From Verrucomicrobiota bacterium (GTDB lineage: Bacteria; Verrucomicrobiota; Verrucomicrobiia; Chthoniobacterales; Terrimicrobiaceae), in the NCBI GenBank assembly GCA_026398275.1, contig JAPLTF010000025.1, forward strand, positions 1 to 64,000: a DNA stretch of 64,000 nt, read 5' to 3'. Shown piece after piece: positions 19,926 to 22,733 of this stretch. Position numbers and translations under genes: made by a program. The number at the start of each line of letters is the position of its first letter. Position 1 is the stretch's first letter. The notes under the pieces were generated by a model. The model did not search any database. It had not been told where the DNA came from and was given only the letters and a program-made list of their open reading frames with translations.

Positions 19926-20810
19926 TCATGGCAGAAGGGCTTTCTTGTGGAGGGCGGAAGGTTTTTTTGAGAAGAGCTTCTCTCCGAGGACGAGCGCCCG
20001 GCGGGCGATGAGCTTTTTTCTGGAGAGCGCGGCGCGTTCGGCCTTCGAGCCGGACAGCCGTCCGGCGAGGCGATCCGTCAGGATGGCGAGCGTCAGGATG
20101 GCGAGGTCGTGGTGGGATCCGAGCACCGAGGCCAGGCGGTCGGCCTTCGGGACGAACCGGCCGAGCGGCGGACCAATCGTGGCGGACTGGTAAAGAAACG
20201 CCTTCACCCGCTTGCGCCATTCGTGAAAAAGAAAGTCATCGTCGGCATCCTTCCGGCAGGCGCGCATCGCGCGGCAGGAGCTCCGGTATCCGGACAGCCA
20301 GGCTTCGAGAAGGCTGTCGCAGGTGAGTTTGGCAAGGTGGTATTGGCCGACGAGCGCGGCCAGCGCCGCGCACGTTTCCCGCGCGGGAGCCGCATCGGCA
20401 TCGAGGTGCGGCCCGCCGGCGTCGAGCCCGAGCGCCTCGACAGCTGCAAGGGCCTCACCTTTTTCGAGAAGATCCAGCAGCAGCTCCTTCTGGACATCAT
20501 TGTCGCGCGCGGATCCGAAGTGGTCCTTCAGGCTCCTCGCCAGCTTGTCGGATTTTTCGAGGGTGCCGGGCTTGAGAGCAGGCTCCGCCAGGCGCAGGAT
20601 TGCCCGGAATTTTTTCATGCGGACCCGGATGTCATGCACGCGGTCCTCCGTGCGCTCCGGGAGGGCCTCGATATCCTTGGCCACAGCCGCCACGAGGCGA
20701 CGCAGGATCCCCTGCACATCTTCGCCCGGACATTTTGAGGCTAGAAGGGTCGGGCTCACACCTCCATGGTTAGCAGGCGGCAAAACCGGGCGTCCATTTC
20801 CGTTTTGCAT
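19926..20810 (-). CDS. CHAD-domain protein
   Basis: CHAD domains are alpha-helical, have conserved histidines and bind inorganic polyphosphate. The 294 residues show both family signatures: VHDIRVRMKKFRAILRL (about 57-73) and LFHEWRKRVKAFLYQSATIG (about 195-214), with HHDLAILTLAIL further on. No CYTH (triphosphatase) domain is fused and no ppk gene is near. The start is uncertain: ATG 20810 lies within a 45-bp dispersed repeat, and GTG 20759 (VSPTLLASKCPGED) is a plausible alternative. Confidence 0.85.
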   Translation of the reverse strand: MQNGNGRPVLPPANHGGVSPTLLASKCPGEDVQGILRRLVAAVAKDIEALPERTEDRVHDIRVRMKKFRAILRLAEPALKPGTLEKSDKLARSLKDHFGSARDNDVQKELLLDLLEKGEALAAVEALGLDAGGPHLDADAAPARETCAALAALVGQYHLAKLTCDSLLEAWLSGYRSSCRAMRACRKDADDDFLFHEWRKRVKAFLYQSATIGPPLGRFVPKADRLASVLGSHHDLAILTLAILTDRLAGRLSGSKAERAALSRKKLIARRALVLGEKLFSKKPSALHKKALLP

Positions 20811-20843
20811 TTCTTTCGCGGAGGGTCCGTGCAAAATCCGCCC
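20799..20843 (+). repeat. 45-bp direct repeat, left copy
   Basis: Identical to 21399-21443, exactly 600 bp away. It contains the perfect 7-bp inverted repeat TTTTGCA/TGCAAAA (20803-20809, 20830-20836) around GGAGGGTCC. It overlaps the presumed start of the CHAD gene on the minus strand. Confidence 0.95.
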
Positions 20844-20893
20844 GCCTCAAAAAGGTGATTCCTGTTCGGCGAAAGGCTGCGTAGATTTTTCCG

Positions 20894-21199
20894 ATGCTGG
20901 AAAAGGAATGGACAGTTGCGTTTGGGGAGTTTGCGCTGATCGTTCGGCGGACGACCGTCAAGGGCGACATGATCGATTTTGCCGTCGTCTTGCTGGCGCA
21001 CATTTCCGGAGAATGGATAAACATCACCCGGTATGACACCGCGCACGGGACGCCTCACCGGGATATCCTTGGAGCAAATCAGGGCTTGCGCTTCAAGCGC
21101 TGGATGGACGATATTGCCTTCGCAGAAGCCTTTGAGTATGCCATCCGCGATTGCACAGAAAATGCCGAAACCTACCTCGCCGACTTCCTCGCGCATTGA
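20894..21199 (+). CDS. Uncharacterised small protein (101 aa), first gene of a two-gene module
   Basis: I cannot name the function. The sequence has a compact alpha/beta look: EWTVAFGEFALIVRRTTVKG, then EWINITRYDTAHGTPHRDIL, and an acidic helical tail (FAEAFEYAIRDCTENAETYL). The YDTAHG.PH.D block recalls a group of small uncharacterised bacterial proteins (DUF7718-like; from memory). Its last 38 nt overlap the next gene. Small overlapping pairs of this kind often act as toxin-antitoxin or phage-related modules, but nothing here proves it. The pair sits between two identical 45-bp repeats. Confidence 0.65.
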   Translation: MLEKEWTVAFGEFALIVRRTTVKGDMIDFAVVLLAHISGEWINITRYDTAHGTPHRDILGANQGLRFKRWMDDIAFAEAFEYAIRDCTENAETYLADFLAH

Positions 21200-21335
21200 T
21201 CCGCGGTTTGTGGATGTGAAGCCGGTGAGCGGGACGATGTCTGCTTTGGAATCTGAGCGGATCATGCGCAAACATGGGCTCCGGCCGATGACCTCCGCCG
21301 AGAGGAAGACGTTTGCCCGATTCCTCCGGGATTGA
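21162..21335 (+). CDS. Uncharacterised small protein (57 aa), second gene of the module
   Basis: ATG 21162 lies inside the end of the preceding gene (38-nt overlap). The product starts MPKPTSPTSSRIDPRFVDVK and continues with a basic C-terminal half (MRKHGLRPMTSAERKTFARF) that could form two helices. No known DNA-binding motif is certain. Overlap and shared orientation imply joint expression with the 101-aa protein. Could be an antitoxin-like partner; that is inference. Confidence 0.5.
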   Translation: MPKPTSPTSSRIDPRFVDVKPVSGTMSALESERIMRKHGLRPMTSAERKTFARFLRD

Positions 21336-21398
21336 GTTTTTTCCAGTTTTAGAAATTCTCAGCTCTCGCACTCGAAGCGCCTGTGGCGAAAGCGGGAG

Positions 21399-21443
21399 TC
21401 CGTTTTGCATTTCTTTCGCGGAGGGTCCGTGCAAAATCCGCCC
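21399..21443 (+). repeat. 45-bp direct repeat, right copy
   Basis: Identical to 20799-20843. It ends immediately before the ATG (21444) of the aldolase gene, so the repeat supplies that gene's whole 5' flank, including any ribosome site. The internal TTTTGCA/TGCAAAA inverted repeat is intact. Confidence 0.95.
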
Positions 21444-22733
21444 ATGCCCGAACGAGACATCCAACATCCCGCCGACCGGCTCGTGGCCGCGATGGAGCGC
21501 ATCTACAACTACCGGATGACCACCACGTCCGGCGGAAACCTTTCCATCCGCGACGAGGACGGCACGGTCTGGATCACCCCGGCCCGGATCGACAAGGGCG
21601 CGCTGAGGCGCGAGGACATCGTGGCGGTGAAGGCGGACGGAACCGTGGCCGGAAACCACAAGCCGTCGTCCGAGCTGCCGTTCCACCTGGGAATTTACGG
21701 GGTCCGTCCCGACCTCCAGGCCATCGTGCACGCCCATCCAGTCGCGCTCGTGGCGTTCAGCATCTGCGGGAAGGCGCCCGACACGCGGCTGTTTCCCAAG
21801 TCGCACGCGATCTGCGGCGAGGTCGGGTTCGCCCGATACGCGCTTCCGGGAAGCCGGCTGCTCGGCGAACGGATCGCCGAAGTTTTTGCCGCCGGCCCGT
21901 CGTGCGTGATGCTCGAAAACCACGGCGTTGTCGTGGGCGGGGCGAATTTCCAGGAGGCGTTCACGCGGTTTGAGACACTGGAATTCACGGCGAAGACATT
22001 GATCAAGGCCGGGGCACTCGGCGGGGTGAAGGTCCTTGGCCCCGAGCGCATCGCCCTTGCGGCGACGCGCCCAGTGCCGGACAAATCGTTCGTTCCCGGA
22101 CCGGCTACCTCCCGCGAGCGCGCGCTGCGGCGGGAGCTCTGCGATTTTGTGCGGCGGGGATACAAACAGCGGCTGCTCATCAGCAGCCAGGGGACGTTCT
22201 CCGCGCGGTTGAACGAAAAGGAATTTGTGATGACCCCCGCCGGGGTAGACCGTGCAAACCTCCAGCCTGCCGATCTCGTGCTCGCCGGCCCGGATGGCAC
22301 GGAGGCCGGGAAAACTCCGAGCCGGGCGCTGCCTTTGCACGAGGCGCTATACCGCCGGCATCCCTCCGTCGAGGCGATTGCCATGGCCACGCCGGTGAAT
22401 GCCACCGCCTTCGCCGTCTCGGACGAAATCCTCGACACGCGCACGATCCCCGAGAGCTATATTTTCCTCCGCGATGTCGGGACCATCCCGTTCGAAACCG
22501 TTTACGGAGATCCCAAAGCCTTCGCCGAACTCACCCGTCCGGACTTTCCGATCAGCCTTCTGGAGAATGACGGGGTGATGGTTTTGGGAACCTCGCTGCT
22601 CGACGCGTTCGACCGGCTCGAGGTGCTTGAGTCCACGGCCGAGGCGGTCATCAACAGCCGCCCGCTCGGCACCGTCCGCCCGATGGGCTCCGACGTGATC
22701 GACGAGCTCGTGAGGGAATTTCTGACGAAGTAG
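21444..22733 (+). CDS. Tandem class II aldolase/adducin-domain protein with degenerate second domain
   Basis: 429 residues holding two class II aldolase folds. Domain one (about 1-210) has the complete active site: Glu77 in SSELPFH, His96 and His98 in AIVHAHPV, His160 in LENHG. Such enzymes cleave sugar phosphates such as L-fuculose-1-phosphate using Zn. Domain two (about 222-429) keeps the fold but every matching residue is changed: SRALPLH (Glu to Ala), AIAMATPV (both His lost), LENDG (His to Asp). I infer one active and one structural or regulatory half. Neighbouring fkp hints at fucose, but that is weak. It converges on the next gene with a 1-nt gap. Confidence 0.87.
   Translation: MPERDIQHPADRLVAAMERIYNYRMTTTSGGNLSIRDEDGTVWITPARIDKGALRREDIVAVKADGTVAGNHKPSSELPFHLGIYGVRPDLQAIVHAHPVALVAFSICGKAPDTRLFPKSHAICGEVGFARYALPGSRLLGERIAEVFAAGPSCVMLENHGVVVGGANFQEAFTRFETLEFTAKTLIKAGALGGVKVLGPERIALAATRPVPDKSFVPGPATSRERALRRELCDFVRRGYKQRLLISSQGTFSARLNEKEFVMTPAGVDRANLQPADLVLAGPDGTEAGKTPSRALPLHEALYRRHPSVEAIAMATPVNATAFAVSDEILDTRTIPESYIFLRDVGTIPFETVYGDPKAFAELTRPDFPISLLENDGVMVLGTSLLDAFDRLEVLESTAEAVINSRPLGTVRPMGSDVIDELVREFLTK

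Follow-up and report, generated by a model that had tools for sequence, protein, structure and literature searches.

By comparison of sequences with a relative of the same genus, we show that a 555-bp cassette was inserted between a gene for a CHAD-domain protein and a gene for a class II aldolase family protein in a Verrucomicrobiota bacterium, and that 45 bp of target were duplicated in the event. The insertion with target duplication is real and is explained at the level of events, and the insert is probably a mobile addiction-type cassette that consists of a candidate pair, a DUF7718 gene and its partner. How toxin-antitoxin-like genes move without a transposon, plasmid or phage carrier is poorly understood, and this case supplies an insertion together with its empty site, as well as a group of similar insertions whose targets differ. 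The whole stretch of DNA that was analysed, 64,000 nucleotides in length, is referred to as the window, and the features of the locus are collected in Table 1.

Table 1 Features of the cassette, the duplicated target and the flanking genes (positions in the window).
Feature	Position	Strand	Evidence
Left neighbour, CHAD-domain protein	19926..20810	-	PF05235, E 9.5e-19
Left copy of duplicated target, 45 bp	20799..20843	+	Perfect repeat; 2 genome copies; left flank collinear with G001 empty site
Inserted cassette, 555 bp	20844..21398	+	Missing between CHAD and aldolase in G001; without terminal inverted repeats, 4/20
ORF1, DUF7718 protein, 101 aa, candidate toxin	20894..21199	+	PF24839, E 2.8e-19, 69.4 bits versus cut-off 25
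ORF2, 57-aa partner, candidate antitoxin	ATG 21162..stop 21335	+	Partner core in 22/30 loci; codon-position bias
Right copy of duplicated target, 45 bp	21399..21443	+	Perfect repeat; right flank collinear with G001 empty site
Right neighbour, class II aldolase family protein	21444..22733	+	PF00596, E 6e-72, 2 stretches; 82% identical in G001

The two 45-bp copies are identical and lie exactly 600 bp apart from start to start, as a preliminary description of this DNA had stated, and they form the sole perfect direct repeat of at least 18 bp at a spacing below 8 kb in the window. The 34-bp core of the repeat occurs at two places in the window (shuffled sequences lead one to expect none), and a search of the whole 4.66-Mb genome with up to three mismatches returned the same two copies only, which excludes a scattering of the sequence at unrelated gene starts. 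As first described, the aldolase ATG (21444) follows directly after the end of the right copy, within which an alternative in-frame start (GTG 21429) is found. The longest CHAD reading frames (start at TTG 20834 or ATG 20810) extend with their 5' end into the left copy. The inverted repeat TTTTGCA...TGCAAAA that had been pointed out is indeed present inside the 45 bp but is probably incidental, because the repeat shows no clear folding advantage over shuffles (z -0.9) and the right arm is not conserved in the same-genus relative (TGCATGAA). In the flanking genes themselves, the class II aldolase domain was matched in two stretches, resembling a tandem fusion of two domains, and the CHAD gene contains a perfect 15-bp tandem duplication at 20076-20105 (CGTCAGGATGGCGAG, twice).

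Relatives were examined for CHAD and aldolase genes separated by a single copy of the repeat, and this arrangement was found in the same-genus genome G001. There, the two genes are adjacent, the cassette is missing, and the spacer is approximately one repeat length long and holds a single diverged copy of the 45-bp sequence. When the window flanks are joined with the repeat kept once, they align collinearly to G001 from CHAD through the repeat to the aldolase. Hence, we take the 45 bp as the target and the 555 bp as the insert, given that G001 has a single-copy, cassette-free arrangement with collinear flanks. This agrees with the earlier view of a 600-bp unit flanked by repeat copies between CHAD and aldolase, and with the proposal that it could be excised cleanly: recombination between the copies would restore the empty arrangement, which exists in G001. 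The cassette has 55% G+C, compared with 60-67% across most of the surrounding DNA. The empty site is demonstrated for the window locus only; at the tRNA-Leu locus of genome G051, where a second one was sought, relatives align over the tRNA only.

A relative of the cassette survives elsewhere in G001, on contig C73, in the form of a 3' part with an intact ORF2 (79% identical) and a broken ORF1, and it adjoins an apparent RelE-type toxin and antitoxin, named from translation alone. Persistence of ORF2 without an intact ORF1 could be the behaviour of a harmless antidote. On the same contig (L034/L031, approximately 4140-4470 in L034), a tRNA-Pro is followed by copies of a repeated short sequence approximately 125 bp apart; these resemble the tRNA-Pro 3' end and the region downstream of it, and are located upstream of the RelE-like pair and the ORF2 remnant.

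That the cassette holds two overlapping small genes had already been recognized, and ORF1 and ORF2 share 38 bp that are read in different frames. In the DUF7718 family alignment R46, D48, H51, H55, D57 and K68 (ORF1) are invariant, and 18 members have these six residues in common together with F29 and L33. A partner with an ORF2-type core lies downstream of DUF7718 in 22 of 30 loci, with E-values that are partly circular, given that the partner profile was refined on the same loci. Past the overlap, ORF2 and its counterpart in L031 differ at 7, 4 and 18 sites in codon positions 1, 2 and 3, respectively, that is, chiefly in the third. ORF2 is therefore very probably a real gene, because the partner recurs in 22 of the 30 loci and the mismatches are biased to third positions. 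At one locus (L015; G007:C35, 1240-1535) a single DUF7718 gene is followed by two tandem ORF2-type partners.

The function of the cargo is putative, and a toxin-antitoxin character of the candidate DUF7718/ORF2 pair is plausible. Searches of Pfam, NCBIfam, PADLOC and PHROGs placed neither ORF1 nor ORF2 in a named family of toxins or antitoxins. DUF7718 carries no functional annotation and gave no matches in PADLOC or NCBIfam, and an RNA-family search gave no convincing match. The predicted DUF7718 structure combines a beta sheet with C-terminal helices (pLDDT 84.5, from an alignment of three sequences only), and neither the PDB (best E 0.16) nor viral models (best E 0.019) gave a convincing match to it.

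The DUF7718 module recurs elsewhere between different long repeats. Long direct repeats bracket 10 of 28 DUF7718 loci, eight of them with a unit of at most 1,200 bp, versus none of 29 cold-shock, none of 10 aldolase, 3 of 30 ParE and 1 of 30 HicA control loci. The difference from the cold-shock genes (Fisher p 0.0003) and from ParE and HicA together (4/60; p 0.001) was obtained with a single script that looks for direct repeats enclosing the gene in cases and controls, and the p-values are a guide and not preregistered, the test having been conceived after repeats were noticed in some of the same loci. The background in the window's own genome is 1.0% of sampled positions (359 kb in stretches). 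The counts hold when the score threshold is varied between 20 and 30, and 7 of the 28 loci are left at 40. The repeats stand out most clearly in the window (45/45), L049 (47 bp, perfect), L050 (83/84), L053 (89/89) and L047 (44/46), and longer, diverged repeats are seen in L060 (about 228 bp) and L058 (143/159). L067 has a 67/67 repeat but lies on a contig rich in repeats, and the evidence at L052 and L055 is weak. Repeat lengths range from 34 to about 230 bp. The 18 DUF7718 loci without such repeats may be old, or another route may have brought the module there.

What is duplicated differs from locus to locus. In L049 an entire tRNA-Leu at one border is matched by its 5' part at the opposite border, the L047 and L060 repeats are the first codons of ABC-ATPase genes (named from translation), and the L053 repeat consists of the last codons of a gene including the stop. 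The preliminary description had proposed that a control region shared by the CHAD and aldolase genes was duplicated. We find no support for this: at other loci the duplicated DNA is part of a tRNA gene, the start or the end of a gene, or simply intergenic sequence, so the duplicated piece is simply whatever the target happened to be, and no control-region role is indicated.

DUF7718 is patchily distributed. It was found in 20 of the 213 genomes of the order, is carried by 14 of 58 relatives and is rare across the wider phylum (4/388 genomes, two of which are already counted), and a search of plasmids, phages and viral contigs found none.

Repeats also surround other toxin-antitoxin-like genes. 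On a 6-kb contig of the window's own genome (L141; G000:C5:1-5968), a 79-bp repeat with 77 matches encloses an apparent antitoxin and a MazF/PemK-type toxin, and diverged copies of the same repeat also separate the neighbouring toxin-antitoxin genes. The array comprises VapBC-like, ParE, MazF/PemK-like and HicBA genes, with related copies of approximately 80-100 bp at 232, 2284, 3126 and 3848, and looks like the result of serial insertion at one target or like a cassette array. Three further arrangements were observed. On the contig of the CHAD-aldolase cassette (L133 15739-16456; G000:C27:79739-80456), diverged copies, about 100 bp in length, of the 3' end of a dxs-like gene lie on both sides of a small ORF with a coiled-coil-like product. 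In L143 (14833-15785; G000:C7), a perfect 110-bp repeat that starts within the 3' end of a HicA gene and occurs again at the contig end flanks a REP-type transposase-like fragment. In L043 (G007:C38), a sequence of roughly 60 bp (CTTTGACCACGTTCTCACGAACGCGGCTACGGGGCGG...) occurs many times over 13 kb between toxin-antitoxin-like genes.

Small cassettes flanked by direct repeats, in one case at a tRNA gene, would also be expected if the repeats were attachment sites of site-specific recombination acting from elsewhere in the genome (an integron cassette, an Xer-dif module or a tyrosine-recombinase satellite), and some of the modules are indeed grouped with other toxin-antitoxin genes. However, the repeats are wholly different between loci and match the local target, no 8-mer is common to at least three of nine repeats, so by this measure the cassette borders carry no common recombination site, and the window repeat has no further copies in its genome. 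For integrases, the part of a tRNA gene that is used is mostly the 3' end, and the duplication of a 5' end in the tRNA case therefore counts against them. We consider this explanation unlikely. Long and variable target duplications are made by a few insertion sequences, such as IS1549 and IS1634, which lends something to the idea of a non-autonomous, MITE-like transposon moved by a DDE transposase with unusually long target duplications. Nevertheless, none of the nine cassettes has the terminal inverted repeats of such an element (end-to-end matches are 1-9 of 20) and their ends are not conserved, which makes this route similarly improbable.

The two-gene locus might instead be ancestral and the relative might have lost the cassette by recombination between pre-existing repeats, given that repeat-mediated excision likewise yields the arrangement of G001. 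We give this little credence: a prior event that made the duplication is still needed, the module sits at unrelated sites elsewhere, and just those 14 of 58 relatives carry DUF7718. An artefact of assembly comes to mind for a metagenome-derived draft of 117 contigs in which at least one long repeat lies at a contig end (L143). Even so, it is very improbable, since the copies are well inside a 136-kb contig and independent genomes show the arrangement again, with repeats that differ, at DUF7718 but not at the control genes.

For the insertion of an addiction-type cassette with duplication of its target, we infer the following course. Duplication of the 45 bp on entry would leave the ends of both the CHAD and the aldolase gene intact, and the DUF7718/ORF2 pair, acting as a putative toxin and antidote, would favour retention of the cassette. 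The duplication would arise without a dedicated recombinase. In the simplest route, replication or break repair would copy the cassette from a donor and re-enter the target upstream of the point of exit, at a distance of tens to hundreds of bases; a long staggered break with fill-in is another route that could give the same duplication. No donor copy and no fresh junction was observed. Insertions that delete target would damage genes more frequently and be lost, and selection would retain those that spare the neighbouring genes. Later recombination between the two target copies would excise the cassette precisely, and addiction would promote the persistence of inserts and the enrichment of such cargo. 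It is conceivable, as a tentative generalization, that small toxin-antitoxin-like modules are mobile units that enter without a recombinase, that each entry duplicates approximately 30-230 bp of target, and that arrays are built by repeated entry at one target; contig C5 of the window's own genome suggests such arrays, in which target copies lie between the modules. The exact junctions open the duplication mechanism to testing, and DUF7718 with its partner is a concrete candidate addiction pair.

In its predicted beta sheet with C-terminal helices and a visually similar RxDxAxH...H stretch, DUF7718 is like TumE (PF20126). In contrast to TumE-TumA, in which the toxin is mostly downstream (PMC10584680), DUF7718 is upstream in its pair. 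We did not retain kinship with TumE: hhalign gave a probability of 0.2 on a scale of 0-100 (E 0.28) against a TumE profile of two sequences, and PF20126 is absent from the Pfam matches. Type II toxin-antitoxin systems share with the module the small overlapping genes, the patchy spread, decayed copies and toxin-antitoxin neighbours, and a conserved pair of small adjacent or overlapping genes is present in the 22 of 30 loci, but neither DUF7718 nor ORF2 is a member of any named family of toxins or antitoxins.

Insertion with long target duplication has been described for restriction-modification genes (Nobusato et al. 2000, Furuta et al. 2010, through the later accounts in PMC1643837, PMC3874152 and PMC3031569). 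Full-text literature searches returned no report of such insertion for toxin-antitoxin-like units, and the novelty for this type of cargo is provisional, because many subscription papers were beyond their reach. As far as those sources go, the likeness is close: an addiction-type unit, long and variable target duplications (on the order of 100 bp there), an empty site in a relative and reversibility by recombination between the copies. Correspondingly, our locus has target-derived repeats (45 bp, and 34 to about 230 bp elsewhere) and a single-copy empty site in G001. The cargo is not a restriction-modification system; unlike the insertions in those accounts, the present ones carry DUF7718 with a short partner (ORF2 in the window) in a unit of 0.6-1.4 kb and occur in different bacteria, and they extend a pattern known for restriction-modification genes to another type of cargo.
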